Of a DNA stretch of 64,000 nt, positions 7,124 through 59,121 are shown piece after piece. Source of the DNA: an uncultured Oleiphilaceae bacterium (GTDB taxonomy: Bacteria; Pseudomonadota; Gammaproteobacteria; Pseudomonadales; Oleiphilaceae); assembly GCA_913060665.1 (NCBI GenBank), contig CAJXUY010000017.1, positions 1 through 64,000 on the forward strand. The letters are read 5' to 3'. The notes below the pieces were generated by a model, which saw only the letters and a program-made list of their open reading frames with translations, did no database searches and was not told the origin of the DNA. Every line of letters starts with the position of its first letter. Positions within the stretch are counted from its first letter, which is position 1. Both the position numbers and the translations under genes were made by a program.

Positions 7124-7225
7124 CGACGGTTAAATAAGCTTATTGATTAGATTTACTTTGATGGGCACACTAACGGCTCTTCCAATACATTCTACTTATT
7201 ACCCGACACTGCGAGATTCAATCTT

Positions 7226-9788: not shown

Positions 9789-9904
9789 ATACTCCTCATA
9801 CTTTGTATTATCTGGCCGATAAGCTTAAGAGAGTAAACGCTTATAGCTGCCTTAACGGTAAGTAATTGATACCAAAAGGTAGCGCTAGTTGTAGAGGAGG
9901 TAGC

Positions 9905-11230: not shown

Positions 11231-11232
11231 CT

Positions 11233-11346: not shown

Positions 11347-11568
11347 ATTATTATGTAGAGTTCTGTTTTGTGGAATATGCGCTAATTGTACCTGCTCTAA
11401 ATAGGTGATTGGGGGTAGCAATTTGAAATTTTGTAAAAAGTGAAAAATTGTGTACATAGTTCGCACGTTAATGACTGGCACCTAAGGTGGTTATCATTTG
11501 GAAACGGGCTGATAGTTTAGGATAAACTGTATCAATGCAATGTCAGTCCCAGCTCTCGTATAGTGTTA

Positions 11569-42380: not shown

Positions 42381-42620
42381 GTGAACAAACAAGACCCCAG
42401 ATATTTGAAGATACGCGGTTTTCTAAAAGACCTAAGAAAGGAGCAGGGTGTTAAACAACAAGACTTGGCCGATAAATTGGGGTTGCCTCAATCTTATGTG
42501 TCGAAGTACGAGAGCGGAGAAAGGAATATCGATTTAGTTGAATTAATTGATATTGTTAAATTTCTTGATCTAGAACCAACCACAGTAATACCAGAGCTAG
42601 TTGCAAGTTTGACTGAATAA
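42381..42620 (+). CDS. XRE-family HTH regulator
   Basis: 79 aa single HTH domain: FLKDLRKEQGVKQQDLADKL, LPQSYVSKYESGERNIDLVEL. It starts with GTG after AGAGATAAAATA. It is almost nothing but the DNA-binding fold (about residues 10-68), like small regulators of restriction and toxin-antitoxin loci. It converges with the McrBC-like module, whose last gene ends 128 bases away, so it may control that island or be a remnant of a lost neighbour. The palindrome upstream suggests autoregulation. Confidence 0.88.
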   Translation: MNKQDPRYLKIRGFLKDLRKEQGVKQQDLADKLGLPQSYVSKYESGERNIDLVELIDIVKFLDLEPTTVIPELVASLTE

Positions 42621-42748
42621 GCTATTGCGCTAATCTTTTAATATTTGGTTTATTCATTCTGCAATTTCCCTCACGTTATCTAGAGCTCGGTGTTTTATCG
42701 GGTATCTTTCTAATAATAGGTCGTATCTAAAGTTACAGATACCTCTTG

Positions 42749-44740
42749 TTAATACAATGAAAAGTAGCGAACTTTCATAAGGAATGGTAATTCAATTGTT
42801 GAGCTTAATATTTTTTGAACAAATTCATTATGCTTCAATTCATTAAAATATTCTTTGTCAGGTTTAAGTTTTCCGTTTATATAGTCATTATGAATCTGGG
42901 TTACGATCTTTAAGAACAGTGAAATCTCAGACCCTCCTAGATCGAAAGCTTTTGAACTTTTGGATATGTACTTCATAGCTTTAGTTTTATTTCCCTTTTG
43001 TAGCTCATATAAGGCAAGTTCGCGTAAAACCAAATCTACTGGGTGGCCTAGCTTATTTAAATCAATAAGAGAAAGGCTCGATTCTAATATATGATCAACA
43101 GCTGAAATGTCTATATCTTTCGCAACAAGTAAAGTGTCATTCACTGCTTTCAAAAACCATAGCGTATCAAAAATACTAAAGTTATTTCTTTGCGGATCGG
43201 CATATTTATTAATATACCAGCTAACAGCCTTAATAGACTTTCGCTGCTTTAATAGCAGCATGATTTTATAATTGTTAAATCGGCTAATATCGATTTTATT
43301 GCTCAGATATGCCCTAATATTAGATAAACGACTATCAATATCTAAAATTGGTAATGAATCATAAAGACCGATACATATTATATTTATTCTTAATAAGGTC
43401 ATTTCTGATTTGATATTGGCTCTAGAAGAATTAAAGCCTGAAAGCTCATCATCATTCAATAGTAACGCCCAAACATCCCTATAACTTTCTATTATTTTCG
43501 AGTAATCAATAGCTAGAGTTAATGCTTTGTTTAACTCAAGTGAATTAAGGTGAGTCTCAGTTTCGGTTACTTTGAAATCTAGAACTAGTTTAAAATATTC
43601 AGGGTTAGTTGCTAGAGTAGGAACTAACTTGTTCTGCTCAGCGATTATTAGAAGAGCTTCAGTCGTTCTTCCAAGATGATTTTCAATGATCAATCTCAGA
43701 TTTCTAAGGCGAAATACAAGGTTGTCATGTCTTTTTGGAGATATATTATCAACGTATTCATTGAGCTCAAAATCAAGTGTACTTAATTTTTGAGATAAAC
43801 TAGCGTACTTTTCAAAGGTATTATTATTCCTCCATAGTCTTTCAATAAGTGCTTCAAAAGAAACCACATAGCCTGACGTGCCTCTTGTGTTAAAGGTTTT
43901 TTCAAATAATCGCTGTATTGATTCTTTTGCCTTTGCCTTTGTATCCGCATTATTTACATAACTTATATTAATCCAGCGATAGAGCGCCAAAACGTAATCA
44001 TTATTTCTCTCTGCGACATGAGCCCTTCTAACATCAAAGCTTCCGAAGGACTCAAATAATGAATATTTATTTTCTAAGCGTAACTCTTCTAAAAAGCTCC
44101 TCTCATTATCTCTTCTATTGTGATAATTGAGGTTTGCTAGGAAATCCGCACAAACTAAACCCCAAGAATTATTAGCGTAATCCATGTGGATTTTTATATT
44201 TTTACCCATTAAGTCAACTAACCCTTTTGTTGCTAAATCAACTTCTAAAGCAATGGGCAGAGATTGAATAATATCTTGGTCTATATTGCTAATAGACGTC
44301 TGTAATTCTCCACCTATTGTTCTCGATGCGACAACAAGATCAAGTTTTGTGATCACTTCGTCATCAGGGATAGACGTTTCACATATAGCTAATATATCAG
44401 CCAACATTAGCCTATAGGTTTTTTCTCTTGTAGATAGTGAGGATTTTGTATAATTTATTGATGCTATGGCATGGTACTTAACGGTGAGCGCATCAAGCTT
44501 CTTATACACTTGCTTAGCCATTTTGACAGCCGTTTCATGGCCGAACTCTCTTCTAAACTCCGTTAAATGAAAGTCTTTAATTGACCTAAGCCCCATTTGT
44601 TGAGGAACCATATCGAATTTTCGAGAAAGAATTTTTTCACACGTAACGTAATTTTCAGCAATTAATATACCTGCTAAAACCCACTGGCCGCGAGACGATT
44701 CAAAATCTCCAGATTCATCTATATATAAAGTGTATTTCAC
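42749..44740 (-). CDS. DUF3800 protein with long helical-repeat C-terminus
   Basis: 663 aa from GTG 44740, eight bases after the McrC-like stop and preceded by TGAGGAAGAAT; an ATG 36 bases upstream would overlap. The N-terminal 230 residues are DUF3800: YTLYIDESGDF (acidic pair Asp8/Glu9), WVLAGILIA, then HMDYANNSWGLVCADFLANL with a second acidic and polar cluster. DUF3800 is thought to have an RNase H-like fold, so a nuclease role is inferred. The other 430 residues are helical, with TPR-like stretches (YVLALYRWINISY, ELALYELQKGNKTKAMKYI). Last gene of the module mcrB-mcrC-this. The long tail is unusual compared with typical DUF3800 proteins of about 230-300 aa. Possible sensor or scaffold. 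Confidence 0.85.
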   Translation of the reverse strand: MKYTLYIDESGDFESSRGQWVLAGILIAENYVTCEKILSRKFDMVPQQMGLRSIKDFHLTEFRREFGHETAVKMAKQVYKKLDALTVKYHAIASINYTKSSLSTREKTYRLMLADILAICETSIPDDEVITKLDLVVASRTIGGELQTSISNIDQDIIQSLPIALEVDLATKGLVDLMGKNIKIHMDYANNSWGLVCADFLANLNYHNRRDNERSFLEELRLENKYSLFESFGSFDVRRAHVAERNNDYVLALYRWINISYVNNADTKAKAKESIQRLFEKTFNTRGTSGYVVSFEALIERLWRNNNTFEKYASLSQKLSTLDFELNEYVDNISPKRHDNLVFRLRNLRLIIENHLGRTTEALLIIAEQNKLVPTLATNPEYFKLVLDFKVTETETHLNSLELNKALTLAIDYSKIIESYRDVWALLLNDDELSGFNSSRANIKSEMTLLRINIICIGLYDSLPILDIDSRLSNIRAYLSNKIDISRFNNYKIMLLLKQRKSIKAVSWYINKYADPQRNNFSIFDTLWFLKAVNDTLLVAKDIDISAVDHILESSLSLIDLNKLGHPVDLVLRELALYELQKGNKTKAMKYISKSSKAFDLGGSEISLFLKIVTQIHNDYINGKLKPDKEYFNELKHNEFVQKILSSTIELPFLMKVRYFSLY

Positions 44741-44748
44741 ATTCTTCC

Positions 44749-47352
44749 TCAAACTAAGCTTGCGCAAGATGGGCATTTAATATTGGTGGGTTCAAGTGCT
44801 TTTGTTGCATGATATGTCCAATATTCCCCGTGTTTTATTAGCCTATTCCCACAATTTCCACAGTAATTATAGGCAGTGAAGTGTTGACATTCTCCACATG
44901 TAATCCACCAAGAGCTCTTCCCAGGAGGCTGATAATAATGATATTTATCTGAACCACAGACAAGACAAAACAACTTTCCATCAACCATAGTCTGTTCGCT
45001 ACAGTTTTGGTTATTTTCAGTACCATACTGTAGAAACATGCCTATTAATCGTTGGAGGTCATCCAAAAAACTACTTTGTATCATTGGTGACACTAGAACT
45101 GCACCATATTTATGGTGTGAGTTGTTTCTTAATGAGCTATCCCATTCAAAAAGTTGATTCTCTCCATAATAAGAACTCTCAGCCCAAGTTTGAGGTGTTT
45201 TCTTTTTGGGCACTGATTGTTTTGATGGGTGAAGTATGAAAACGGAGTTCTTTTCTCCTTCAGAATAATCTTTTTCTTGGTATAAATCCTGTATTACCTT
45301 AGAAATACCACCATGTCTTTTGGAGTCAATGTGTTCATAAAATTTCGCATCCATAACTAATCGATGAGATGTTGCACTTCCATCTTTATAGTTATCAACT
45401 GTTACATCTAGAATAAAGTCTGGTCTGCGTAAATTAGATAGCTCCTTCTCATACCAAAGTGTGATTGCTCTCCCAGTATCACCATTAGCAAAATCTATCT
45501 TTATATTTTTTTTAAAGTTAATTGTTTGATCGATTAATTTATCTTTCCAGTTAAGTTCCGGAAGGAAACGATACTTATCAATGAGTACTTTAATAATTTG
45601 GAGCAAGCACCAACGTTCATAAATCAGTGATATATTCACGATGCCTATTTTTTCGACTTCCTGTAAAGCAATAAATAGATGTTCATCGAAACCCGATAAC
45701 TCAATTATTTCTTTATACAGTTTGTGAGCACCTTGATAGCTGGGGTTTTGAACAAAAGTCATTGAATTAGGTAGTGTACTATCGGTAATTATATTGAGCT
45801 TTATAAAGCTACGTTTAATGCTTTTGAGTTTTGATACATACGGTGTCAGCTCTTCAAATAGCTGAGCGCTTAAATCATGAGCTTTGTGGGCCATATCAAA
45901 AGATTTCTTGACTGATATTTGTTCCTTATCTTGTAACTGTTTCTCAGGCACTGTTAACCGTCTAAGCCAGTTTGTACTCTCTAGTTCTTCAATTTTTTTA
46001 TTAGTAGAAGCTAGTTCAGAAGTGATTTTACAATTTATAATACTAACTGAGGCTATATAAACATAATCTAGAAATATACCTAATTTTTTTTGGTTTTGAT
46101 CTTTTGAAAAACCTCTTCTTATATAACCCTGAATTTCATATTCTGCATGCTCAATTAACACTCCATCAAAGAATTCTTTGCTGAATGTCATCAATATATA
46201 GGAGGTGTTATATACAAAACCATCATGCAACACGTCAGTTCTACTAGACCAATTGGCTGCTTGTTGAACTTTTACTTCACCAAAAAACTTGAGACTATCA
46301 GTGTTATCTAGCTTTTTAGTCAATTTTATATTTATCACTTCCGAGACTAGAGGATAAATATTCATGTTGTGGTCTTGAGATTTTACAGCCTCAAGCAATC
46401 CTATTTTCTGATTAACCTGTAATTCAGTTAGCTCTTCCACTTCATTTAGAACAACCTGCTTATCAATTTTTTTATAATCGGAGAAGCTATCAAGCCTGGC
46501 TTTATAATCTTTTAAATTGCGTTGCTGGATATTTGCAGTGTATTTAGATACTTCACTGAGGCCTCGAATTAAAACAAGAATTCTAGAAATTAAATAGTGA
46601 ATATATTTATTTTCAGGCACATTATAACTTTCGACATAGGCTCTACTGGTCAGCATTTTTCGCCTCCCCATAGTAGATATCTCCATGAAAGTTCTAGGAA
46701 CCGGACGAACATTTTTTATCGGTACAAGAGCTTGTGTTTCATGTAGTGCTTTTTTGGGTTTATTAATAATCTGTGATGTATAATCAATAAATCTTGCTAT
46801 TAATTTTACGGATGAACTATCAAGTAACTTCTTCTTATTATTTTTAGCCGGCCCTTTAATGTAGCTCGTTTCATGTAGTATTAAATACCAAAAATCATTT
46901 CTAAAATCTTGCAAGTACAGTTCAAGTTCTTTATATGAAAAGCTTGAACTGGCTATATGTATACGGCATTTTATCTTGCCTATACTGAGAACAACTTCTC
47001 CTGCAGACCTAAATATTTCTGATTCCCACCGTTTTTGTTTTGGACTCCATTTCTGAGCCTCTACCCACCAGATATTACCCGTTAGGCTATCTTTTATCGG
47101 TTTGAGCGGGCTCGATAGTGTGCTATTAATTTTAAATGATAAGGGATGTTTATTTGTTTCGTCTAATTTACGAAAAGCAAGTTGCCCTAGATTTCCATTA
47201 CATGCATTACTGTACGTAATAGCGTCTAGTTGATAGTTAAGAGGCTCAAGTTCCAATAAATCTAGAGATTTATCAGACACTTTAATACTTAAAGCAGAGT
47301 GCTGATCTGCCCAAATGACCTGTATATATTTTGCTTCAAATGTAGGATTCAT
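44749..47352 (-). CDS. McrC-like DUF2357 nuclease with zinc-ribbon C-terminus
   Basis: 867 aa. N-terminal beta-rich DUF2357-type region (1-230) and a long helical middle. The PD-(D/E)XK nuclease has IYERWCLLQIIKVL (Glu579), RRPDFILDV (Asp645) and LVMDAKFYE (Asp668, Lys670), the McrC pattern with all key residues. The last 75 residues hold four CxxC pairs (Cys796/799, 819/822, 831/834, 860/863), probably two zinc ribbons that could bind nucleic acid. It starts six bases after the McrB-like gene. In McrBC systems the McrC partner cuts when McrB is activated by target recognition. Ordinary McrC is about 350-450 aa, so this is an enlarged form. Confidence 0.88.
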   Translation of the reverse strand: MNPTFEAKYIQVIWADQHSALSIKVSDKSLDLLELEPLNYQLDAITYSNACNGNLGQLAFRKLDETNKHPLSFKINSTLSSPLKPIKDSLTGNIWWVEAQKWSPKQKRWESEIFRSAGEVVLSIGKIKCRIHIASSSFSYKELELYLQDFRNDFWYLILHETSYIKGPAKNNKKKLLDSSSVKLIARFIDYTSQIINKPKKALHETQALVPIKNVRPVPRTFMEISTMGRRKMLTSRAYVESYNVPENKYIHYLISRILVLIRGLSEVSKYTANIQQRNLKDYKARLDSFSDYKKIDKQVVLNEVEELTELQVNQKIGLLEAVKSQDHNMNIYPLVSEVINIKLTKKLDNTDSLKFFGEVKVQQAANWSSRTDVLHDGFVYNTSYILMTFSKEFFDGVLIEHAEYEIQGYIRRGFSKDQNQKKLGIFLDYVYIASVSIINCKITSELASTNKKIEELESTNWLRRLTVPEKQLQDKEQISVKKSFDMAHKAHDLSAQLFEELTPYVSKLKSIKRSFIKLNIITDSTLPNSMTFVQNPSYQGAHKLYKEIIELSGFDEHLFIALQEVEKIGIVNISLIYERWCLLQIIKVLIDKYRFLPELNWKDKLIDQTINFKKNIKIDFANGDTGRAITLWYEKELSNLRRPDFILDVTVDNYKDGSATSHRLVMDAKFYEHIDSKRHGGISKVIQDLYQEKDYSEGEKNSVFILHPSKQSVPKKKTPQTWAESSYYGENQLFEWDSSLRNNSHHKYGAVLVSPMIQSSFLDDLQRLIGMFLQYGTENNQNCSEQTMVDGKLFCLVCGSDKYHYYQPPGKSSWWITCGECQHFTAYNYCGNCGNRLIKHGEYWTYHATKALEPTNIKCPSCASLV

Positions 47353-47358
47353 TAATAG

Positions 47359-49593
47359 TTAGGACCAATAATTAATAATCCAGTCATTTGTCCTTGCTTT
47401 TTCAATGATGCCTCTTAGCTCTTCTATGGCATTTACTCCAGTTGAGCTATCGTTTGTAACCTCTAATGCTTGTTCTAGTTTATCAATGAGACTACTTAGT
47501 AATTTATATTTTTCAGTTTCACCAACCATCTTATTTCCATCAAAGGTCATTTTAGGAAGAATTTTATGCAAGAAAAAATTATTAATAGCTAGATCTTTAT
47601 CGTCATTGAATTTCAAAAAATTCTCTTGATAATTGAGCCCCTGTCTAATTGTTCTAAGACCAACTTCAATACCTAATGGCCTGAAATATAGCTTTGTAAA
47701 TTCAACCATGAGGCTACAAAACTCATTTTTAACTTTGTATTTAGGATAAGGTACTCTGCTACCTAGGTCTTCTAGCTCAAAATGTATTTTTCTTGTTACA
47801 TCATCAAAACCGTAAGACTTAATATTTTCCTCAATAGTAGCCCAGTCATGTAACAGAGGGCTTTCAAATTTAATCACATGAGCACGATCCAATATTTTTG
47901 GTGACAAATTATTCGTAGTCTCATCTATATTGATAGCTCCAATTATTCTTACGTTAGGTGGGAAGCTAATAGTTGCAGGTGTTTTTAATACACCTCCTAG
48001 CATTCTCCTTAAGTCAGAATGATATTTTATCAGTGAGTCTTTATCACTAAATCCAAATACACGCTTGAGTTCTGTATTAATTTCCTCATCTTGGAGTAAT
48101 TTTGCAAAATCATTTATATGCTCTTTATTGTACTTTTGTTTGGCATCTGTGATGAGTTGAATGACATGCTTAAACTCAGAAAGAGTATGAGAAGACTCAT
48201 CATCTGAATACAAATATATTTCAGGTATGTCATTTCTTTCTTCTAGCTTGGAGAGAAAATCAGCGAAATAGTATTCAACATGCGCCAAATTCATCTCATC
48301 CAAACAAATAAAATAGGGCGTTTCTGGATTATTGCCAGCATCAATAAGTGCTTCTAAAAAAGGAGTGGACAAGTATTTTTTTTCTAGGGGGTTATAGTAA
48401 CCCAGCAAATCTTCTGAACTTGTCCAATTAGGTTTAACAGGGATAACCCTAGACTCACCGCCGATAGCTTTGGCAAATGATTGCACTAAATTTGTTTTGC
48501 CGGAGCCAGAATCTCCAGCTAATATAATCAGGTCATTAGTTTGGATTAATGCAAAGAAGTCCTCTAAAACATATCTAGGGTAGATTATATCTTGAGCAGA
48601 TAAATATGCTTGTATATAAGATACTGATTTTGCGTAGTCTCTTTGGAAGTCATCAGTAAAACTGAGAGAATTTTCACTTGATCTCTTATTTACCCTGCCA
48701 GATAACAAACTATCAAACTCTTCGTCATCAATAAATTCCAAATCTTTTAATATGATTGCTTTATCTTTTACAAAGCTTTCTAGTTTTTTTAGTTTCTTAG
48801 ACATATCGTTCTCGTATTCAGCATGGAGAGTTTTCAGTGCTTGAAAATCGTTCTTAAGTTCAGTTTCTTTGAGGGCAAGACTTTGTAAATCTTGGATAAC
48901 CCGTTCTCTTTTTGTCTGTTGTTGTTCAAGTGTTTTTTCTGTGGCAGTAAGTTTGTACTGAACCTTTTTTACATCTTGCTCAATGCTAAATTGAGTTTTA
49001 TTTAATTCTTCTTGTTCTTTACCTAAAAGGTTTTTGAAATCTGTATGCTCTCTTTGTAATTTTGCTTCTAATACTTCTTTTTCTTTTTGCAATGCTTCTT
49101 CATTTTGACGAACATATATGTCATAAACAGACTGGCTAATATAACTATTAATCTCGTCGTTATGAATCTCTTCACTCAACCTTGGTAGCTCTTTAAGTAA
49201 TTCTATTGACTTAAACTCAACTGATACTTCAAGAGGGTTATTATGATCCTCCCTTACAGTGCTAGGTGATAATTTGAGGTCACAAGAAAGTAGGGCTCCA
49301 GCGGAGTACTTGCTAAAAATATCTTTGTCATTAACTGTAATAAAGACCCCTTTTTCTGAAATAGGTATGACACCAGAAGTAGGGTATTCAATGATAGATT
49401 TTGTATATATGTCTTTTACTTTCTTAAGACTAAATACGTATCTCCCCTTAAGAGTTTTATGTTTGTATAGCTCACCCCAAACAGAAATCTTTCTATTATT
49501 CGGTATCTCCCAGTCATTTTTTAGAATTGACAATACTTCTGAATCGGTGAGATCTTGCAACTCTTTAAGGCTGTATATTTTGCCTTCAGACAC
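47359..49593 (-). CDS. McrB-like AAA+ NTPase with coiled coil
   Basis: 744 aa from GTG 49593 (CTGGGGA upstream). The N-terminal beta-rich domain (about 30-135, possibly OB-like) is followed by a long coiled coil (about 160-285, rich in E, K, Q and L), then an AAA+ domain. Walker A is GDSGSGKT (360-367), Walker B FICLDEMNLAHVEYYF (428-443), and the McrB-type signature region IGAINIDETT (551-560) then LDRAHVIKF. McrB GTPases usually carry MNTAD at that site; here it is NIDET. The coiled coil before the motor and the DUF2357 partner recall the CoCoNuT class of type IV systems, thought to target RNA. What it recognises is unknown. Confidence 0.88.
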   Translation of the reverse strand: MSEGKIYSLKELQDLTDSEVLSILKNDWEIPNNRKISVWGELYKHKTLKGRYVFSLKKVKDIYTKSIIEYPTSGVIPISEKGVFITVNDKDIFSKYSAGALLSCDLKLSPSTVREDHNNPLEVSVEFKSIELLKELPRLSEEIHNDEINSYISQSVYDIYVRQNEEALQKEKEVLEAKLQREHTDFKNLLGKEQEELNKTQFSIEQDVKKVQYKLTATEKTLEQQQTKRERVIQDLQSLALKETELKNDFQALKTLHAEYENDMSKKLKKLESFVKDKAIILKDLEFIDDEEFDSLLSGRVNKRSSENSLSFTDDFQRDYAKSVSYIQAYLSAQDIIYPRYVLEDFFALIQTNDLIILAGDSGSGKTNLVQSFAKAIGGESRVIPVKPNWTSSEDLLGYYNPLEKKYLSTPFLEALIDAGNNPETPYFICLDEMNLAHVEYYFADFLSKLEERNDIPEIYLYSDDESSHTLSEFKHVIQLITDAKQKYNKEHINDFAKLLQDEEINTELKRVFGFSDKDSLIKYHSDLRRMLGGVLKTPATISFPPNVRIIGAINIDETTNNLSPKILDRAHVIKFESPLLHDWATIEENIKSYGFDDVTRKIHFELEDLGSRVPYPKYKVKNEFCSLMVEFTKLYFRPLGIEVGLRTIRQGLNYQENFLKFNDDKDLAINNFFLHKILPKMTFDGNKMVGETEKYKLLSSLIDKLEQALEVTNDSSTGVNAIEELRGIIEKARTNDWIINYWS

Positions 49594-49674: not shown

Positions 49675-52600
49675 TCATATTTGCGCCCCCAGCATACTTC
49701 TCAAACTCTGCTGCATTGCAGATTTAAACGCACCATCTTTAGCTAATAGCTTATATAGATCTATCTCACTCTTACGCTGTTTAAGCATTACTTCTTCGAA
49801 GATTTTCTCGAATGCCAAGTCACGGTTGTGAGTGTCTTGGTTATTCTGGAATTTTTCTTCAAAGTCGGGGTGGGCTTTAATGTTGTCTGCGATATTTACG
49901 AACTTAACGCGTTGTTCTTCTGGTGTTGCTGACCAGCCTTGAAACCAGCGCTCATTAAAGTTTCGGATAATTTCATCCAATGGGTCGTGTTCTTCTTCGC
50001 CGCCATGAGCGCCCCTAGGGTTAGGGTTCTGTGGGTCGAGTTCAGTTTCACTATCATCTAGGCCAATGCTGTGATTAAGTTTTACTCGTTCCAATCCATA
50101 AGTTGATAAGTCAACCGATTCTAGCAAAGCATCAATTAGGTCTTTGTCGGGATCTTCTATTTTTAATTTTGGGATAAGGAATTTAAGAAACCAATAGAGT
50201 TTTTCCCAGGCGACTATTTCATAGGGCATGATCGAGGCCATTTGGCCGTAAATTTTCACGAAGTGTTTAGATTTTATTTTAAAATCAATTTTATCTTCAT
50301 CTTCCAGGTCTAATGCGGCATTGAATCGGTCTGCCGCAGTATCAATGATAGGACTAAGGTCTTGTGCATCAGCATTATCGAAGTAAAGCTCATTAAAACG
50401 TTCTACTTCATGCCACTCATAAACACCTATATCGTCCAGTGAGTCCTTTAGTTCGTGAAGTAAATTGACGTCGGTCGCTTCGGATAGAGATGTGGCGGTG
50501 TAAAAGTCATCGAAAGCTGTTTTGATATCATCTACAGAATTGAAGAAATCTAAAACAAATAAGTCTTCGGTTTTCTTACCCCATTTTGGAGCTGAACGGT
50601 TTAATCTGGATAACGCCTGAACGGCTAAAACGCTTTGCAGTTTTTTGTCTACATACATAGCGGCAAGCTTTGGTTGATCAAAACCAGTTAAATATTTGTT
50701 TGCAACTACCAGTAAACGATATTGATCTTCATTAATGTCTTTTTTAGGTTGCTTTTCACCAACGTAGTTCTTGTCGAACATTTCCTTCGTGTTTTTTTCA
50801 GGAAAGCCATTCATATCCGCTTCAGTGTATTCAATGCCGTCGACTTCTTTTACTCCAGAAAAGGATACAATCGCTTTAAAAGGATTACCTTTCTCGTCTA
50901 ATAAGCGACTAATAGCCTTGAAATACCGAATGGCAGTTTCGATATTTTGGGTGATGATCATCCCTTTTGCTTTACCCTTAATTTTTTTAGTGTTAACAAC
51001 GTGAGGAATGAAATGCTCAAGCATAATTTCAGCTTTAGTATTAATTGTTTGTTGGTCTCGTTCTACATAAGCACGTAGCTTCTTCTGTGCTTTTTTACTG
51101 TCGAAAAGCGGGTTTTCCTCGATAGATTTTTCAATCTCGTAATAACTTTTGTATGTGGTGTAGTTTGCAAGCACATCAAGGATGAAGCCTTCTTCGATGG
51201 CTTGTTTCATTGAATATAAATCGAATGGGTCGAATGAACCATCATCCTGTTTAATACCAAACTTCTCAAGAGTGCTGCCTTTAGGCGTAGCGGTGAATGC
51301 GAGGTAAGAAGCGTTACCACGCATCTTTCTTGAGCGCATAGCTTCTATGATTTTGTCTTGGGCATCATCGGTGCTTTCGGATCCACTTTGATCATAAGAA
51401 CCTTTACCCATTGCTCGATTCATATTGTCGTGAGCTGACCCGCTTTGTGAGCTATGGGCCTCATCGATAATAACCGCGAAACGTTTCTCACTTAAATCAG
51501 AGATACCATCAATGATAAAGGGGAATTTTTGAATTGTTGTAATGATGATCTTTTTGCCTTGCTCTAAAGCGCTTTTTAATTCAGACGATTTATAAGCAGG
51601 TGCAATGATGTTCTTAACTTCGGAGAAATCTTTAATATTATCTCTAAGCTGTTTATCTAGTAAACGTCGATCTGTAACTACAATGACTGAATCAAACAAG
51701 GGTTGATCTACACTTTTGGCACCTGGGATATCCGCGCTTATGGGGTATGTTTCAATGAGTTGATATGCTGCCCAAGTGATAGAGTTAGATTTACCAGAAC
51801 CAGCCGAGTGTTGGATTAAATATGTCTGACCAGCCCCGTGCTCACTTGCATGGCTAATAAGCTTTCGAACAACATTTAACTGATGGTAACGAGGAAAAAA
51901 TAGTGTGCGTTTGTTCAGAGGGGTTTTGCTTGTGCCATCTAAGCGTACAAAGTGCTGAATAATATTGGCAACGCTGTCTTTGCTAAATATTTCCTCCCAC
52001 AAGTAGGCAGTTTTATGCCCTTTTGGGTTAGGAGGGTTTCCTTGGCCATAATTATGACCCTTGTTAAAGGGGAGGAAGAAGGTGCTCTTACCTGTTAGTT
52101 TAGTGGTCATAAATACTTCGTCGGTATCGACAGCCATATGAACCAAACAACGTCCAAACTGCATCAATGGTTGTTTGACGTCTCTATCATTACGATACTG
52201 TTTTTGCCCATGGTAACGAGCAGTTTGGCCTGTCCATGGGTTTTTAAGCTCAAGAGTGGCAAAGGGGAGGCCATTAATGAACAGCACTACATCAATTTCT
52301 TCTAAGGGATTTTCTATAGAGTATCTGAGCTGCCGTGTACTACTGAATATATTACTATCAAAATTCTGTTTCACCTTATCTGAACTGCTCGCCAACGGTG
52401 CTGGATACATAAGGTTAAAAAAGGCGTCATCAACGCTTAAGCCTTTTTTTAGCATATAAAGTAAGCCATACTTTTTTACAAGGCGGTCAAATCGTTCAAG
52501 AATTTTGCGCTGCCAATCACTGCTAGCTTTCTGAAGTTTCTCTAGCTCTTCCTGTTGAGTATTTTGAAGAAAAGCCCAAAAACAAACTTCGTCGATAGCA

Positions 52601-52782
52601 TACTGTGCATTAAAGTTTTTAGGGTAGCCTAAGCGATAGCCATGATGATTGCCGAAAGGAACCTGTTCTTCGCGTACTTCGTTTTTTGAAGTAGTACTTG
52701 ATTTGAGTTCTTCCAGGCAGGTGCCAGTCAGCCTTTTTTCAATAGCGGCTTCTAATGCTTGTTCATTTGTTTGGCTAACCAT
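49675..52782 (-). CDS. hsdR: Type I restriction enzyme, R subunit
   Basis: 1035 aa. The N-terminal nuclease has EEIDVVLFINGLP (Asp164) and TLELKNP (Glu178-x-Lys180). SF2 translocase: Walker A HSAGSGKSNS (about 325-334), VVTDRRLLDKQL, DEAH at 440-443, YLAFTATPKGST, then VVANKYLTGFDQPKL and ALSRLNR. The C-terminal helical part binds the methylase core. It moves DNA and cuts unmodified DNA when bound with HsdM and HsdS. It is separated from the other hsd genes by three accessory genes and a 251-base gap (52783-53033) with small inverted repeats but no gene. The McrB-like gene follows after 81 bases. Confidence 0.95.
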   Translation of the reverse strand: MVSQTNEQALEAAIEKRLTGTCLEELKSSTTSKNEVREEQVPFGNHHGYRLGYPKNFNAQYAIDEVCFWAFLQNTQQEELEKLQKASSDWQRKILERFDRLVKKYGLLYMLKKGLSVDDAFFNLMYPAPLASSSDKVKQNFDSNIFSSTRQLRYSIENPLEEIDVVLFINGLPFATLELKNPWTGQTARYHGQKQYRNDRDVKQPLMQFGRCLVHMAVDTDEVFMTTKLTGKSTFFLPFNKGHNYGQGNPPNPKGHKTAYLWEEIFSKDSVANIIQHFVRLDGTSKTPLNKRTLFFPRYHQLNVVRKLISHASEHGAGQTYLIQHSAGSGKSNSITWAAYQLIETYPISADIPGAKSVDQPLFDSVIVVTDRRLLDKQLRDNIKDFSEVKNIIAPAYKSSELKSALEQGKKIIITTIQKFPFIIDGISDLSEKRFAVIIDEAHSSQSGSAHDNMNRAMGKGSYDQSGSESTDDAQDKIIEAMRSRKMRGNASYLAFTATPKGSTLEKFGIKQDDGSFDPFDLYSMKQAIEEGFILDVLANYTTYKSYYEIEKSIEENPLFDSKKAQKKLRAYVERDQQTINTKAEIMLEHFIPHVVNTKKIKGKAKGMIITQNIETAIRYFKAISRLLDEKGNPFKAIVSFSGVKEVDGIEYTEADMNGFPEKNTKEMFDKNYVGEKQPKKDINEDQYRLLVVANKYLTGFDQPKLAAMYVDKKLQSVLAVQALSRLNRSAPKWGKKTEDLFVLDFFNSVDDIKTAFDDFYTATSLSEATDVNLLHELKDSLDDIGVYEWHEVERFNELYFDNADAQDLSPIIDTAADRFNAALDLEDEDKIDFKIKSKHFVKIYGQMASIMPYEIVAWEKLYWFLKFLIPKLKIEDPDKDLIDALLESVDLSTYGLERVKLNHSIGLDDSETELDPQNPNPRGAHGGEEEHDPLDEIIRNFNERWFQGWSATPEEQRVKFVNIADNIKAHPDFEEKFQNNQDTHNRDLAFEKIFEEVMLKQRKSEIDLYKLLAKDGAFKSAMQQSLRSMLGAQI

Positions 52783-53033
52783 GTTTTCGCAACTCCTGTA
52801 AATGCCCAGCCAAGGTAACTGACTGTATTTAAATACTATTCTGTTAAAAATCTTTAGAGTGATGTTTATTGTTATAGCTACTTCAGCGTCTAAATTTTTG
52901 TTTTATGTGAAACTGGTCTACACTTTAAGTTGACAGTGAGGGTCTCTTTCATAGAGAATCTCACTCGCTCACCTACCATTGAGTAGAAAGAGGTGACCGC
53001 TAATCGCCCGGTCCATAATAGGCGACCATTCTT

Positions 53034-53576
53034 TTAGAACCATTCACAGCTTTCTAATTCTTCGTTATTACCTGACATGTACTCTTCATACCATTTATCG
53101 TATGAACTGCGTTTATATGATTCAGTTATATAAAAGCTGGTAACTAAATAACAGTCCGATTCGCCTAATTTTTGCACAATAACAACAAAATCATGTTGGT
53201 GAGCCCAGAAATAAAGTCTAACTGGCTTCTTACCCTTTGTTTCCTTTCGATAAAACAACTTAATATCACCGTGTGTATGATTGGTTAGCATAGGCTTTAT
53301 CCATTCAATCCTGCATGCACGGTCAGGGTCATATGGGCGCGTTTTGATATTAACGAAGTGCTTACCCTGCTTTACTTTTTTCTTCTTTTCCCTAGTTGTG
53401 ATATGCCAAAAGACTTCTTCCTTACCATCTCTTAGCCCTTGAGAATTTGGGTCTACATAGATTCCACTGCCTATTGTGGTTTGGCTATCTACAAAGTCTC
53501 TTATAAAGTATGGGTGCAATATATCAAAAACCTCAGGTTCTGATTGGCCCGCTAAATCTAAAATTGGAGGTAGCAT
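53034..53576 (-). CDS. Unknown 180-aa protein, possible BECR-type RNase
   Basis: Not recognised with confidence. The ATG directly abuts the previous stop (TAAATG) with AGGAGA upstream, so it is coupled to the DUF3800 gene. Features: EEVFWHITTREKKKKVKQGKHF, DPDRACRIEWIKPML, and a C-terminal pattern HQHDFVVIVQKLGESDCYLVTSFYI followed by Tyr/Lys-rich residues. The HI...K, basic patch and YLVTSFYI layout recalls barnase/EndoU/colicin-like (BECR) RNases found in phage-linked and toxin proteins, but this is only a guess from shape. No signal peptide or membrane segment. Confidence 0.7.
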   Translation of the reverse strand: MLPPILDLAGQSEPEVFDILHPYFIRDFVDSQTTIGSGIYVDPNSQGLRDGKEEVFWHITTREKKKKVKQGKHFVNIKTRPYDPDRACRIEWIKPMLTNHTHGDIKLFYRKETKGKKPVRLYFWAHQHDFVVIVQKLGESDCYLVTSFYITESYKRSSYDKWYEEYMSGNNEELESCEWF

Positions 53577-54281
53577 TTAGGATCTCCTGGGAGCGAAGCG
53601 AAAAATATTGAATTGGCGTTCCCATGGAGGGGTTGTGTAATTCAATTCGTGCCCAAGTTTAGCTTCAAGGTAAGCTACGATTTGACCCTTGATAATGCTT
53701 TTGTGACTGATGTCAGTTCGGTTTTTATATGAAATAGCACCAATTAACAAGTCACATAATTGAATTAGTTGAGCTTCATAGGATTGCACTATAAATGCGT
53801 TAACACTCAGGCTCCAGTCAGTTGAGTTCTGTAAAACATCGCATAACTCTTTTGTCTTGCTTCCTCCTAACGTATCCATATAGTCTAGATAAATTCGATA
53901 TCTATTATTAGGTCCCAAGAAATCCTTTAGTGTGTAATAGAACATTTTGTAGTAAAACGTATTATGCGACCCCGCATTGTATCTTTCATGATCAAGAGAT
54001 TGTTTATGTTGTACTACAGTTGCTTTAAACCAAATATCACAGTCATCAAAAAGCATATCTAGTAGCGATCTATAGAATGGCCATTGTTTGGCAATTAATT
54101 TAGTCCATTTTAGTTCGTTGTGATAATTATGCTGATGACGAAGCCACTTAATATGTTTGGTTAGTGCTGTGGCTTTTTCTGCAGTGCAGTGAAGTGCGCC
54201 CAGCACCATGATGTCAGCTCCGTCATGCTCTAGGTGGCAGCTTTCGTCACAGAAGATCTTATAAATATTTTGTTCAGTCAT
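53577..54281 (-). CDS. DUF3800 protein
   Basis: 234 aa, the usual short DUF3800. YKIFCDESCHLEHDGADIMVLGALHC supplies the Asp-Glu-Ser acidic motif. ELKWTKL, YRIYLDYMDTLGGSKTKEL (a second acidic cluster) and IQLCDLLIGAISYKN follow. The RNase H-like fold is inferred for the family, with a nuclease role likely but unproven. It lies one base after the DUF4268-type gene and directly before the unknown gene at 53,576. A second, much longer DUF3800 protein lies at 42,749-44,740. Such proteins are frequent in defence islands. Confidence 0.85.
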   Translation of the reverse strand: MTEQNIYKIFCDESCHLEHDGADIMVLGALHCTAEKATALTKHIKWLRHQHNYHNELKWTKLIAKQWPFYRSLLDMLFDDCDIWFKATVVQHKQSLDHERYNAGSHNTFYYKMFYYTLKDFLGPNNRYRIYLDYMDTLGGSKTKELCDVLQNSTDWSLSVNAFIVQSYEAQLIQLCDLLIGAISYKNRTDISHKSIIKGQIVAYLEAKLGHELNYTTPPWERQFNIFRFAPRRS

Positions 54282-54282
54282 A

Positions 54283-55410
54283 TTATGCCCTTTGCCTCAG
54301 TTGGCTCGCTGCATCGGCTAAGGGTTGCTTAAGCGCCTTTTCAAACTTGGTCATTTCAGCAATCATCCATTCAATCGACTGTGGCCATAGATCTTTGTTG
54401 TTCGCGTCTGCTGCTTTAGTGAGCTGAATACGAGAGGACTTTTTATCATTCAAGCGCATCCACTCAAGCTCATGACCGGTTACTTGTTCGATGGCGTCTT
54501 TCTGCTCAAGCAGCTGTTCAAAGATTAATTTATTATCTTCAGTAACCGAACGGCTTATCCATAGCTCTACACGAATTTCTTTTTGGTTAAATATCAGATT
54601 GAAGGGGCAGCCGGTCACACCTGAACCAGCAGACAACCAGTGATCCTTACTAGCGCTAATGTTGTTGAATAGATTGCAGGGACTGTTTTGAAAAGCTTCC
54701 AATGCCTCTTCCCAAAAAGCGCGTCGCACGGTATGGCGTGTTTTTAATACTACCTCAGTGTTCTTTTCTTCTTTTTCCTTGGCTGACATACCAATCATTA
54801 GTTCTTCAGCTTCAGGTGTAGGAATGATTTGCTCTACATTTAACAGTAATTGTTCACCCAGTGCATAAGGCGTCACTTTAAAGCAATGTACTGAAATACC
54901 TTGGCCAAGTAGCCATAGTGCAGTACTGGTGACTTCTTTACGGAAGTTGGCAGCGACAAACATAATGCGCTGGCTGTTGCCAGTATTAAGCTTTAACTCA
55001 TCTATATCCGGTGTGCCGATAAACTCACAGACTTGGGCTTTGGCATCGCCACCTTGTTGGTAGCGGTTTAAATACTGCTGAAAGATATCGACAATTTGGT
55101 GTTTGATTAGATTGGCGCAATAGGAAGCATACTTTAGTGCTTGCCACACCACATCGCGGCCGCTGTCATCTAGCTTATTTTCGATAATAACTAGGTTGCC
55201 CATTTTGTCTAAAGCTAGTAAATCCAATCGCTCTCTGGTGTCGTCAAAGCCGTCAAATTCTTTTTGGATGATCAGAAGCTCTTCACCCAATGCGTTAGGT
55301 TCGTTGGCTAACCATTCCTGTAGATGATGGCGTTCTGTAAAACCTAAATCACTAAAACGTTTAATGACCAATGGCGCAATGCGGTTACTGTCCTTATCTA
55401 TGGTGTACAT
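54283..55410 (-). CDS. PD-(D/E)XK nuclease-like protein with DUF4268-type C-terminus
   Basis: 375 aa. N-terminal nuclease-like core: LGEELLIIQKEFDGFD (Glu), RLDLLALDKMGNLVIIENKL (Asp63, Glu77-x-Lys79) and DVVWQALKYASYC. The C-terminus (about 235-360) resembles DUF4268, with FNLIFNQKEIRVELWI, FEQLLEQKDAIEQV and LEWMRL. The start overlaps the end of hsdS by 13 bases, so the gene is translationally coupled to it. Proteins like this ride in type I restriction operons; their function is not known. Possibly a second nuclease or a guard. Confidence 0.83.
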   Translation of the reverse strand: MYTIDKDSNRIAPLVIKRFSDLGFTERHHLQEWLANEPNALGEELLIIQKEFDGFDDTRERLDLLALDKMGNLVIIENKLDDSGRDVVWQALKYASYCANLIKHQIVDIFQQYLNRYQQGGDAKAQVCEFIGTPDIDELKLNTGNSQRIMFVAANFRKEVTSTALWLLGQGISVHCFKVTPYALGEQLLLNVEQIIPTPEAEELMIGMSAKEKEEKNTEVVLKTRHTVRRAFWEEALEAFQNSPCNLFNNISASKDHWLSAGSGVTGCPFNLIFNQKEIRVELWISRSVTEDNKLIFEQLLEQKDAIEQVTGHELEWMRLNDKKSSRIQLTKAADANNKDLWPQSIEWMIAEMTKFEKALKQPLADAASQLRQRA

Positions 55411-56729
55411 TCTGTTTCCTTGACTTCAGCGCTAATATCTTCGACACCGAGCACTCTAATTTTGCCTGTAACAGCACTATTGATAAGTGTGGCTTTGTAT
55501 TCTTTTAGTTTATCTATTTGCTGTTGTTGTAAGTTGATGGCTGTGTCGATTTTAAGGGATTCTGCATTAATAAATTCAACGATTGTTGTTTGTTCTTCTT
55601 TGGGTGGGTATGGAGCCATTACCACTCCGAATTTGTCAAAGTAGAGACGTAATCGCATATCCATAATTCCACGGGAGTGTTTTTTTAGCTCTGCTGAGCA
55701 GGACTTAGTGCGGAAAAGGTAATGATAAAACATTCCCTCTATTGGTTTAACTGACCGCAAAATATCATATGCAGGGCTTGTGACTCCTTCGTAGTTAGAG
55801 AGCCCGATTGCTCCCATCCATGCAAGAAGTTTGTTAACAATAAAATCTCCTTTCTTAACAATCCAATAGCCATCAGTGGTCGAAGCTTTGTTGCCTTTTG
55901 CTTTTAACTCCTTTCTTGGCTTAACACCTATATCGGTGTAGATTGATAGAAGCTCATGATCATTGTTTTTTTCAGAAGGCTCCATTATTAATTGGAAAAT
56001 ATTCTTTATTCGTTTCACCTCCCAATGTTCCGGGATCTCTCCAATCCAATCTACTCCAGAATCTTGCATAGGCGCATCAATATTAAGCCCGCGAATCACC
56101 GTATTTTGAATAAGGATTTGCTTGTGCTCTGTGAGTAGAGTTATTTGTTTCTCTTTGGTGGCGATGGCTTGGTCGATTTTTGCTGTTTTTTGATCTAAGA
56201 AATTGGTTATGGCGGTTTGTTCTTGAACAGGTGGAATAATCACTTTTATATCGTATAGATCATCAGTATATAGACGGATAAAACCTTCCATGACTCCTGT
56301 GACGCGTTTTTTGAACTCTGCTAGATATTCGGGTTGTAGAAGCAAATAATTAAGAAAATAAATGTTTAAACAGTCAGTATTCTGAGATTTATAAATTGAG
56401 TAATCTGGACTAGTAATGCCTTTTAGTTTAGAAACTGATAATAGTCCATTTACCGCTTGCATCTTATTTATAACTAGATGATTTTCATAGACTTTCTTAT
56501 AGCCAACGAGGGAGTTAGCTTGTCCAGCCCGCTCTTCAAGACTAGACTTAGGAATAACTCCGCTGTACTTGCTCAAAGATAGTAGCTCTTCTTCTCCAGT
56601 CGTTGATCTTTCGTTAACCTCTGACAGAAGGTATTTAAGTCTGCAAGTCTTCCAGTGTGACGGAATATCATCTATCCAACCTTCTTCAGAGTCTTTGTAG
56701 CTCTTATACTTAGTTATACTTTTAGGCAT
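55398..56729 (-). CDS. hsdS: Type I restriction enzyme, specificity subunit
   Basis: 443 aa from ATG 56729, which overlaps the hsdM stop by eight bases and has GGGG upstream. Two target-recognition domains: TRD1 (about 15-165, WIDDIPSHWKTCRLKYLL) and TRD2 (about 230-370, WIGEIPEHWEVKRIKNIF). Each is followed by a spacer helix (FLDQKTAKIDQAIATKEKQI; FINAESLKIDTAINLQQQQI). This is the standard pseudo-dimeric HsdS that reads a bipartite asymmetric site and links M and R. The recognised sequence cannot be predicted. Confidence 0.93.
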   Translation of the reverse strand: MPKSITKYKSYKDSEEGWIDDIPSHWKTCRLKYLLSEVNERSTTGEEELLSLSKYSGVIPKSSLEERAGQANSLVGYKKVYENHLVINKMQAVNGLLSVSKLKGITSPDYSIYKSQNTDCLNIYFLNYLLLQPEYLAEFKKRVTGVMEGFIRLYTDDLYDIKVIIPPVQEQTAITNFLDQKTAKIDQAIATKEKQITLLTEHKQILIQNTVIRGLNIDAPMQDSGVDWIGEIPEHWEVKRIKNIFQLIMEPSEKNNDHELLSIYTDIGVKPRKELKAKGNKASTTDGYWIVKKGDFIVNKLLAWMGAIGLSNYEGVTSPAYDILRSVKPIEGMFYHYLFRTKSCSAELKKHSRGIMDMRLRLYFDKFGVVMAPYPPKEEQTTIVEFINAESLKIDTAINLQQQQIDKLKEYKATLINSAVTGKIRVLGVEDISAEVKETECTP

Positions 56730-59121
56730 TCTCAATCCCCGAAATTTCTTTAACGGGAATGTCAAGAATATCGGATAATAAGCCTTCCGCTTGTTGTTCT
56801 AAGCAAATAATATCCTTTGCAACTTCGTCCATACTACGCAACGGATTATGGCGGTAGAAGTATTTGTTAAAACTAATCTCGTAACCAATCTTGGTGGAGT
56901 TGAGATTGATCCAAGCTTCTTCTAGATGAGGCTTCACTTCAGTAAGGAAGAAACGGTGAATGTCGTCTTTTAAGGGGATTGATTCGCTATCTCGTAAATC
57001 GGTATTCGGTTCGTAGGAGATATATTCACTGTTTTTATCAGTTGGGTAAAAGCCGAATTCAGGAAGATCACTTAATCGACAGCCTAGCTGGTCAATTAGT
57101 TCTTCGAGTTTGTCGTTGGTTAGCTTAAATTTTTTCTTAATGACTTTAACTGCTGTTTCATCGTACCAGCTGACGGTGTTTAAAATGACATTTTTGTCAC
57201 CCGAACCGAGTTTCACGTTTTGTTCTTTAAGTATCTGTTTTAATGATACATCCACTTCGGTTTTAAACAGGTTAAAGTCATTGACTTCGTCTGTGCCTAT
57301 AACGTCCATTAACGAATAGGCTGTTGTGACTTGTAATTTGTGTTTTTGCCAAAGCTTCGGGTCGAATAGCTTTTTACGTGCTTTGGTATTGAGTTCATTT
57401 TCATTTTCTTCGCACCACTTAATAATGGTCTTTTCTGCTGCTTTTAAGGTGTCTGCTTTGTAGATGGCCTCACCGTATTGCTGGTAGGCCCAACGCATGG
57501 GTTCCAATAAGCTCTTATCAAAGCGAAGGGTTTCAATTCGCTCAGTACTGAACTGTGCTTTACGGCGATCGGGTCGTTCGATATTCACTTTATAATAACC
57601 GAAGTCGCTATTATCGAATATTTGTGCAGCGATACCAGAATCATCGGCATTGCGTTCTTTGATAGATAGCTGCAAATAGGTGTCTGTGATCTCGCGAACA
57701 TGCTTTGGTGTAAATTCGCAGTTTTTATTACCGAGACTCTTACGTAGTTTACGATAAAGCTGGCTGCCATCAATTAGTTGAATTTTGTTTTGTCTGTGAG
57801 TTAGTTTTTTGTTGCTGAGTAACCAGATATAAGTGGTAATGCCTGTGTTATAGAATAAATTGTTGGGTAGTTGAATAATGGCTTCGAGTAAGTCGTTCTC
57901 GATAATAAAGCGACGGATATTGCTTTCGCCGCTGCCTGCATCTCCAGTGAACAAACTTGAGCCGTTATGAACCGAAGCGATACGTGAGCCAGTAGGGCTG
58001 GTATCGTGCGGTTTCATTTTGCTGACCATTTCCATTAGAAATAACAACTGCCCATCGCTGGAGCGAGGTGCTGCATCAACGACTTCTTCTTCACCCCAAT
58101 AATTTTTAAGATTTACCTGGAACCGAGGGTCAATAACCTCGCCACCTTCCTTGATATTCTTTTGCTCACTGGACCAGCTTTTACCATAAGGTGGGTTAGA
58201 CAACATAAAGTCGAAACGGGTACCGGCAAATTCATCGTAACTAAGTGTTGAACCAGATTTAATGTTAGCGGGGTTGTTGCCCTTGATCATCATGTCCGAT
58301 TTACAAATGGCATAAGTTTCGTCGTTAATCTCTTTACCGTATAGATAAACATCGCCATTAGCGCGAATATTACCGTCAGGGTTGGTAATAAAGTTTTGTG
58401 ATTCAGTGAGCATGCCGCCACTGCCGCAAGCAGGGTCATAAATGGTCATAACCGGGGGTAACTGATCTTTGATTGGGTCAAACACCAAATGCGTCATCAA
58501 CTCGATAACTTCACGTGGGGTAAAGTGTTCGCCAGCCTCTTCATTGTTGTCTTCGTTAAACTTACGAATCAGTTCTTCAAAGACATAACCCATCCCTAAG
58601 TTAGTTAGAGCAGGTAAGCGGTTGCCGTCGGGGTCTTCGCCTTCAAATGGTGTAAGGTTGATGTAAGGGTCGGTAAATTTCTCAAGCACATCTAAGAGCA
58701 CATCTTTATTTGCCATGTGTCGAACTTGATCTTTGAGTTTAAATTTCTCGATGATTTCACCAACATTACTGCCAAAGCCGTTAAGGTATTCTTCCACATT
58801 GGCTAACAATATTTGTTGGTTGTTCGTAGCGGTGGAGAATAGTTGCGTTAAGGTCCATTTACTGGTGTTGTAAAATACATAACCAGATGCTTCGCGTAGC
58901 CCTGTTTCATCAAACTCAGTGAGTTGCATTTCTTCTAGCTGGAACTTTACTTCTTCCAGTACTTTGTCTTTTGTAGGCTCTAATAAACTATCCAGGCGAC
59001 GGAGCACCACCATAGGTAGAATGACGTCACGATATTTGCCACGCACATAGACATCACGCAGGCAGTCGTCGGCAATGGACCAAATAAAAGAAACGAGTTT
59101 GTTATGGGCTGCATGGTTCAT
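56722..59121 (-). CDS. hsdM: Type I restriction enzyme, modification subunit (long form)
   Basis: 799 aa N6-adenine methylase. SAM motif DPACGSGGMLTES (about 229-241), catalytic NPPYGKSW (309-316), FTPREVIELM, and an N-terminal HsdM_N helical part (SFIWSIADDCLRDVYVRGKYRDVILPMVVLRRLD). Classical HsdM is about 500 aa; this one has a C-terminal extension of about 250-300 residues ending IGYEISFNKYFYRHNPLRSM and an extra helix, typical of a long HsdM branch. It starts 10 bases after the WYL regulator gene. Confidence 0.95.
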   Translation of the reverse strand: MNHAAHNKLVSFIWSIADDCLRDVYVRGKYRDVILPMVVLRRLDSLLEPTKDKVLEEVKFQLEEMQLTEFDETGLREASGYVFYNTSKWTLTQLFSTATNNQQILLANVEEYLNGFGSNVGEIIEKFKLKDQVRHMANKDVLLDVLEKFTDPYINLTPFEGEDPDGNRLPALTNLGMGYVFEELIRKFNEDNNEEAGEHFTPREVIELMTHLVFDPIKDQLPPVMTIYDPACGSGGMLTESQNFITNPDGNIRANGDVYLYGKEINDETYAICKSDMMIKGNNPANIKSGSTLSYDEFAGTRFDFMLSNPPYGKSWSSEQKNIKEGGEVIDPRFQVNLKNYWGEEEVVDAAPRSSDGQLLFLMEMVSKMKPHDTSPTGSRIASVHNGSSLFTGDAGSGESNIRRFIIENDLLEAIIQLPNNLFYNTGITTYIWLLSNKKLTHRQNKIQLIDGSQLYRKLRKSLGNKNCEFTPKHVREITDTYLQLSIKERNADDSGIAAQIFDNSDFGYYKVNIERPDRRKAQFSTERIETLRFDKSLLEPMRWAYQQYGEAIYKADTLKAAEKTIIKWCEENENELNTKARKKLFDPKLWQKHKLQVTTAYSLMDVIGTDEVNDFNLFKTEVDVSLKQILKEQNVKLGSGDKNVILNTVSWYDETAVKVIKKKFKLTNDKLEELIDQLGCRLSDLPEFGFYPTDKNSEYISYEPNTDLRDSESIPLKDDIHRFFLTEVKPHLEEAWINLNSTKIGYEISFNKYFYRHNPLRSMDEVAKDIICLEQQAEGLLSDILDIPVKEISGIENA

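Follow-up and report, generated by a model that had tools for sequence, protein, structure and literature searches.

A DUF3800-TPR-like gene recurs directly behind the cnuBC pair in type I-A CoCoNuT-like loci and is a probable third partner of the system

CoCoNuTs are built around a branch of McrB GTPases whose NxxD motif has been reduced to NxD, in most cases with E or D as the next residue, and within this branch lies a clade that carries coiled coils. The available text of the paper that names these systems (Bell et al. 2024, PMC11090510) distinguishes type I-A by its GTPase, CnuB, which has a helical insert separating the Walker B and NxD motifs. The type I-A nuclease, CnuC, is described there as a PD-(D/E)xK enzyme with a beta-sandwich and zinc ribbons, whose DUF2357 is interrupted by an OB fold and coiled coil. 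According to the same text, a type I-A CoCoNuT has no components other than CnuB and CnuC, RNA is the predicted target of CoCoNuTs, and type I restriction-modification (RM) neighbours are remarked on. DUF3800, a domain reported to have an RNase H nuclease fold, occurs in other immune loci, where a TPR and DUF3800 protein partners a branch of Cas12a2 (PMC10910872); according to the available part of PMC12669027, some VI-F and V-A2 loci also encode a DUF3800 nuclease with this fold. Here we analyse a 64,000-nucleotide stretch of DNA from an uncultured Oleiphilaceae bacterium (the window; positions 1 to 64,000 of contig CAJXUY010000017.1, assembly GCA_913060665.1), in which a cnuB-cnuC pair is followed by a third gene, called gene 3 below. 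We think that the three genes probably form one operon, in which a type I-A CoCoNuT core is joined by a dedicated third subunit, a predicted second nuclease.

Open reading frame (ORF) calling on the window places cnuB, cnuC and gene 3 in tandem on the minus strand, and the gaps of 6 and 8 bases given in an earlier note on this DNA are found when gene 3 is started at a GTG codon. The first gene, cnuB (47359..49593), has a GTG start and encodes a 744-residue McrB-like AAA+ GTPase with a coiled coil; cnuC (44749..47352), 6 bases further on, encodes an McrC-like nuclease of 867 residues. From its first ATG (44776), gene 3 would start inside cnuC and encode 675 residues; from the GTG at 44740, which is 8 bases past the cnuC stop, the gene spans 42749..44740 and encodes 663 residues. 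GAGGAAG lies just upstream of this GTG, which we take to be the likelier start because homologous proteins begin M-K/N-Y-T/S-L at the corresponding position, although the homologue in locus L047 is less clear. An Rfam scan of the window and six homologous loci gave nothing at the gathering score, relaxing the threshold over 40000-61000 brought up four sub-threshold matches, and scans for promoters (41 versus 52.8 expected) and terminators (14 versus 12.8 expected) gave no informative signal.

The CnuB/CnuC pair is already known. CnuB matches PDC-M26A of PADLOC-DB (version 2.0.0) over residues 3-744 with an E value of 1e-278, and CnuC matches PDC-M26B over residues 1-865 with an E value of 3e-263; we take the prefix PDC to denote a candidate defence system. 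A Pfam AAA_5 match is also found in CnuB, whose family profile matches the E. coli McrB structure 6hz4 (E 6.7e-4), while CnuC matches PDDEXK_7 over the Pfam cut-off (E 1.7e-7) and DUF2357 below it (E 2.8e-4). The pair also fits the features of type I-A CoCoNuTs that we tested. CnuB has the Walker A motif GDSGSGKT at residue 360 (48493..48516, minus strand, as are all features of the three genes), LDEMN at residue 431 and NIDET at residue 555 (47917..47931), where E. coli K-12 McrB has MNTAD; N555 and D557 are invariant in all 47 aligned rows. The insert that is the hallmark of type I-A is located at 47974..48210 by alignment. The stretch from Walker B to NxD is 93 residues long in the window CnuB and 90-93 in all 45 type I-A-like rows, compared to 19-35 in 10 of the 11 other rows, which comprise type II, K-12 McrB and further McrB-like proteins; the remaining row has 192. 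The coiled coil, at approximately residues 183-266 (48796..49047), is assigned from heptad periodicity, with z scores of 4.0, 4.1 and 2.3 in overlapping segments (up to 4.1 at residues 197-252), and from weak SMC-type matches to residues 123-318; the heptad test is noisy, giving z scores of 2.8-3.3 at two places outside coiled coils. The type I-A description also places a CSD-like OB fold at the N-terminus of CnuB; the CSD family is absent among the 25 listed of the 66 Pfam families matched by the 47 members.

CnuC retains its nuclease motifs, PDF at residue 644 and DAK at 668 (active site, residues 644-670, 45343..45423), of which P644, D645, D668 and K670 are invariant in all 47 aligned rows. 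Its four CxxC pairs, starting at residues 796, 819, 831 and 860, make up the zinc ribbons (residues 796-863, 44764..44967); five of the eight cysteines are invariant and two nearly so, and C834 is neither. An AlphaFold2 model of CnuC from a 42-row alignment (mean predicted local distance difference test score, pLDDT, 85.0; predicted template modelling score, pTM, 0.80) has an N-terminal beta-sandwich at residues 1-134 (46951..47352), with weak Foldseek matches to complement C3/C5 chains, and an OB/CSD-like barrel at residues 337-440 (46033..46344) between long helices at 246-324 and 442-518. The model also has a nuclease-like region at approximately 574-760 and short strands over the zinc ribbons. 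Foldseek places single-stranded-DNA-binding OB folds first (E 5e-3) and has the Thermococcus McrB-McrC complex at rank 39, although no match reaches an E value of 0.001; a comparison of CnuC with solved structures by sequence gave a best E value of 0.055.

These results bear out much of what the earlier note had read from the letters, namely a coiled-coil McrB with NIDET in place of MNTAD, an enlarged McrC with an intact PD...DxK and four CxxC pairs, and a resemblance to CoCoNuTs. Its proposal of a new defence system as a whole is not supported, since the pair is PDC-M26A/B and fits type I-A CoCoNuT; the pair matches a described type and gene 3 lies outside that description. A categorically new system is rejected on the same grounds, as is a degenerate or broken motif at NIDET, which is the NxD signature in the available text of PMC11090510.

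The evidence for a third partner comes from the recurrence of gene 3 behind cnuC. A scan of genome contigs with a CnuC alignment yielded 47 loci, six of which have a gene-3 homologue directly behind cnuC (six of the 44 with at least 700 bases downstream, three having fewer, and seven of 45 with the window). The gene-3 loci, the window included, fall in five phyla. The homologues are found in metagenome-assembled genomes (MAGs) of a spirochaete (L019, phylum Spirochaetes; 70% identity to gene 3, in a protein that stops at 262 residues), of Sulfurimonas (L038; 54%), of Desulfurivibrionaceae (L048; 32%) and of Armatimonadetes (L047; 28%), in a further MAG in which the gene runs off the contig end (L039; 35%), and in an isolate of Paraferrimonas haliotis (L035; 37%). 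Junctions between cnuC and gene 3 range from a 4-base overlap to a 21-base gap, always on the same strand, with an uncertain start in L047. The recurrence of the three-gene set makes a chance explanation implausible.

As the search that yielded these six relatives started from cnuC, surveys with a gene-3 profile serve as the independent test. Across the ORFs of 65 loci, the profile returned the same seven proteins and none further at E values up to 10. Six surveys, comprising 1,442 genome searches in samples that may overlap, gave matches only in genomes that were already known, although distant stand-alone copies could be missed: 1 of 398 genomes in the Pseudomonadota (so assigned by kinship), 2 of 297 in the phylum of L048, 1 of 200 in the phylum of L038, 1 of 151 in the phylum of L047, 1 of 149 in the phylum of L019 and 1 of 247 in the order of L035. 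Phage records gave no match to the L038 gene-3 protein, and viral contigs searched with gene 3 or CnuC held no relatives. A single-sequence gene-3 scan of genome contigs was uninformative, being so strict that it missed even the 70% relative in L019. Gene 3 is never seen without cnuBC in the genomes, plasmids and phages searched.

Gene 3 also diverges together with the pair. Mantel tests on pairwise identities over the seven loci gave a correlation of 0.85 between gene 3 and CnuB (a value reached in 8 of 5040 permutations), of 0.87 between gene 3 and CnuC (4 of 5040) and of 0.94 between CnuB and CnuC (10 of 5040). Two splits are common to the seven-row trees of all three proteins: L048 with L039 is starred in each, and the window with L038, L019 and L035 is set apart in each (91/95 in the gene-3 tree, starred in the CnuB and CnuC trees). 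The window, L038 and L019 are starred in the 47-row CnuB tree as well. Descent of gene 3 with the pair is backed at depth, and in the detail some swapping is possible. By these comparisons of sequences and predicted structures, gene 3 is established as a conserved, co-diverging and position-fixed partner of cnuBC.

The gene-3 protein is best described in two parts. An AlphaFold2 model from the seven-row alignment (mean pLDDT 82.4, pTM 0.68) has a mixed alpha/beta N-terminal domain at approximately residues 1-232 (44045..44740), followed by an all-helical region at approximately 235-663 (42752..44038), as expected from the DUF3800 domain and helical tail of about 430 residues that the earlier note had described. 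We base the DUF3800 assignment on profile-profile and fold comparison and not on the Pfam score; a Pfam match to DUF3800 at an E value of 0.1 or better is found in four of the seven members, the best being 0.0028. Compared by hhalign with eight DUF3800 proteins that exceed the Pfam cut-off, the N-terminus gives an E value of 2.3e-5 and a probability of 76% over 67 columns, and the alignment pairs the DESGD motif at residue 8 with DESGD, and H58 with a conserved H, of those proteins. Residues D8-D12 (DESGD), H58, E61, D115, D134 and D199 are invariant in all seven rows. Among predicted viral structures, the best Foldseek match is a phage DUF3800 protein (template modelling score 0.61 to the target, E 2e-3) and the second is a TPR protein. 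Against the PDB the matches are weak and mostly to TPR/PPR-type superhelices (best E 5.8e-3), and the best match to solved structures by sequence has an E value of 0.11. Together, these comparisons support a predicted architecture of a DUF3800 domain, with the RNase H fold predicted from PMC10910872, joined to a TPR-like solenoid. One weak lead concerns the helical tail, in which residues 263-343 match positions 116-197 of the 222-position PADLOC model PtuB1 (E 0.0032), as do residues 259-328 of the L038 homologue (E 0.0015); we count this as a single lead because the window and L038 proteins are close relatives, and the L035, L047 and L048 homologues have no PADLOC match at all at E values up to 1.

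If gene 3 is a dedicated subunit of a type I-A CoCoNuT, CnuB would, by analogy with McrBC, form an AAA+ ring whose nucleoside triphosphate hydrolysis is stimulated by CnuC. The OB-fold and zinc-ribbon domains may take hold of nucleic acid of the phage, for which RNA or a transcription intermediate is the most likely candidate, RNA being a likelier target than DNA on the argument made for CoCoNuTs. Gene 3 would dock to the complex by its TPR-like arm, and the motor could then license two nucleases, the PD-(D/E)xK domain of CnuC and the predicted RNase H-fold domain of gene 3. In the end the nucleic acid of the phage would be destroyed or, if this fails, the infected cell would shut down.

Several observations weigh against this reading. 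Gene 3 is absent from 38 of the 44 CnuBC loci with at least 700 bases downstream and from all 160 plasmid records in which CnuC is covered over at least 80% of its length, from which we conclude that the CnuBC core can do without it. Plasmid records searched with the window protein or the L048 protein gave no gene-3 match. The linkage on which the earlier note had made its proposal depend is thus one-sided: it holds for the seven loci in which gene 3 lies directly 3' of cnuC and co-diverges with the pair, and fails for the 38 of 44 that lack the gene. Of the six homologous loci, five lie on MAG contigs, for which the taxonomy may be wrong, and two of the homologues (L019 and L039) are incomplete. 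The trees do not agree throughout, as the CnuC tree has a starred group of the window, L035 and L038 without L019, while the gene-3 tree groups the window, L038 and L019 without L035 (85/96), in conflict with CnuC. The window protein scores 15.7 bits against Pfam DUF3800 (PF12686), or 15.6 from the GTG start, below the cut-off of 21; none of its fold matches has an E value of 0.001 or better; and hhalign against the PDC-M04A subgroup of DUF3800 gave no significant match (probability 0.9%, E 0.064). Finally, the presence of gene 3 requires three changes on the GTPase (CnuB) tree rooted with K-12 McrB, and therefore both gain and loss and no single clean clade. One possible course, from the tree, would be a single gain with losses in L049 and in a 20-row clade to which the enterobacterial plasmid forms belong; another would have several gains. 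We rejected the view that all type I-A systems descend from an ancestor with gene 3.

The likelihoods that we attach to this reading and to the alternatives overlap in part. It is possible, but we think unlikely, that gene 3 is a regulator, brake or adaptor, whose TPR-like arm holds CnuBC inactive while the DUF3800 domain only senses or processes nucleic acid. TPR-like proteins are often sensors or adaptors, and the top PDB fold match of gene 3 is AimR, a phage regulator of the TPR type. The absence of gene 3 from most relatives would also suit a control layer that is optional. However, the invariance of DESGD, H58, E61, D134 and D199 in all seven rows would suggest catalysis over mere binding.

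We are similarly doubtful that the locus performs ordinary McrBC-type restriction of modified DNA, with gene 3 encoding another DNA nuclease, one with a RuvC/RNase H fold. Like mcrBC of E. coli K-12, the pair does adjoin type I RM genes, and the OB fold of CnuC best matches proteins that bind single-stranded DNA. Profile searches of CnuB, however, found no DNA-binding specificity domain of the canonical McrB type, and the prediction in the available text of PMC11090510 is that CoCoNuTs target RNA.

Least probable, in our estimate, is that gene 3 is an independent DUF3800 defence gene that travels as a passenger behind an ordinary two-gene type I-A CoCoNuT: its absence from most CnuBC loci, the partial conflict between the CnuC and gene-3 trees, the gathering of unrelated systems in such islands (a further DUF3800 gene lies with PDC-M04B and a DUF4268 gene in the RM run of the window) and the occupation of the same slot by other genes would fit this explanation, but all seven copies, although found around cnuC, lie directly 3' of it and on its strand, either overlapping it slightly or after a short gap, they co-diverge with the pair over phyla, and no copy away from cnuBC was found in six genome surveys, two plasmid searches and one phage search.

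Cas12a2 and Cas13 act on RNA targets, and the predicted architecture of gene 3 resembles that of the partner of RNA-activated Cas12a2. We put forward, as a speculation that is more likely wrong than right, that DUF3800-TPR proteins are portable second nucleases of RNA-sensing immunity, which joined Cas12a2, type VI-F CRISPR and a lineage of CoCoNuTs in separate events; in the CoCoNuT such a protein may form, together with the motor and CnuC, a two-nuclease machine that cleaves transcripts of the phage or RNA-DNA hybrids. That CoCoNuTs target RNA is predicted in the paper in which they were named, and a natural variant with a second predicted nuclease provides a direct handle on it. A type I-A CoCoNuT, moreover, is not always a two-gene system, and a third gene that overlaps cnuC or directly follows it is a marker by which further cases can be sought.

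The three genes end a longer minus-strand run, in which ORFs, Pfam and PADLOC identify hsdM, hsdS, a DUF4268 gene (PDC-S11), a second DUF3800 gene (PDC-M04A), PDC-M04B and hsdR (49675..59121). The PDC-S11, PDC-M04A and PDC-M04B genes lie between hsdS and hsdR, at 53034-55410, so that several candidate defence genes are embedded in a single type I RM run; L082, from a genome of the same order, has by eye a similar pair of a DUF4268-like and a DUF3800 gene. Homologues of hsdM or hsdR are found within the available DNA of nine of the 47 CnuC loci, in line with the remark in the available text of PMC11090510. They are found in none of the six gene-3 loci, of which L019 and L039 are short contigs; as all four informative loci lack them, gene 3 seems to be tied to cnuBC and not to the RM genes.

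The head of the run is a WYL-domain gene (59132-60019), 10 bases upstream of hsdM. At the other end, a small helix-turn-helix ORF (XRE-like by eye, approximately 42381-42621, plus strand) lies between gene 3 and parE and is convergent with gene 3. In the three congeners compared, of four searched, parE is retained, the DNA behind it is largely different, and the island therefore occupies a variable site. One congener, G002, has similarity running approximately 450 bases past parE into the helix-turn-helix ORF, and two stretches with 69-70% identity to the WYL gene approximately 13 and 16 kb behind parE. The comparison of congeners suggests a putative defence hot spot behind parE.

The position behind cnuC is occupied by other genes elsewhere. 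A relative of the DUF4268 protein of the window lies there in three type I-A-like loci (L023, 12614-13606; L030, 12620-13612; L034, 12760-13755), so this slot may take alternative accessory genes, and the enterobacterial loci L027 and L033 have in common a 194-residue ORF 26 bases behind cnuC. Upstream of the genes in L038 are a viperin-like match (E 3e-7) and a PDC-S02 protein, at 1049-2494 and 6942-7682, and PADLOC matched none of four proteins that neighbour gene 3 in L035 and L048 at an E value of 0.001. In L040 (Enterovibrio, 7823-12583), cnuB is split over two ORFs and cnuC over three.

As a third partner of a type I-A CoCoNuT, gene 3 looks undescribed in the literature searched, in agreement with the earlier note. 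DUF3800 is not named in the main text of PMC11090510 (supplementary files lay outside the search) or, as far as the available text goes, in that of PMC12458937, a later paper that extends CoCoNuTs, and no publication joining DUF3800 and McrBC was found in a search that left supplements, most preprints and most subscription journals outside its scope. The Cas12a2-branch partner (PMC10910872) joins a DUF3800 RNase H-fold domain to TPR and adjoins an immune effector, although this effector is CRISPR and not CoCoNuT and the likeness to gene 3 is one of predicted architecture; in the VI-F and V-A2 loci, DUF3800 stands beside a CRISPR effector, and the likeness is by description only, from the available part of PMC12669027.

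The likeness of the pair to other McrB-type systems is partial. E. coli K-12 McrBC is also a pair of an AAA+ GTPase and McrC near hsdS and hsdM, but differs in its MNTAD motif, in a stretch of only 24 residues from Walker B to NxxD, in its small McrC and in having two genes. Type II and III CoCoNuTs have in common with the window an NxD GTPase and a coiled coil; in L014 and L015, which read like type II systems by gene order, the corresponding stretch is 30 residues, compared to 93 in type I-A, and the partner genes are different. PDC-M26 of PADLOC-DB matches both proteins over their full length, with gene 3 having no strong PADLOC match. The closest described system is type I-A CoCoNuT, with which, on the available text of PMC11090510, the window has in common the NxD motif, the insert, the coiled coil, the order cnuB-cnuC and the type I RM neighbours, as well as the CnuC beta-sandwich, OB-fold insertion, intact PD-(D/E)xK and zinc ribbons. 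It differs from that two-gene description in its third gene, and because this gene is present in the window and in six of the 47 loci, we count the set as a variant of type I-A and not as type I-A as defined.

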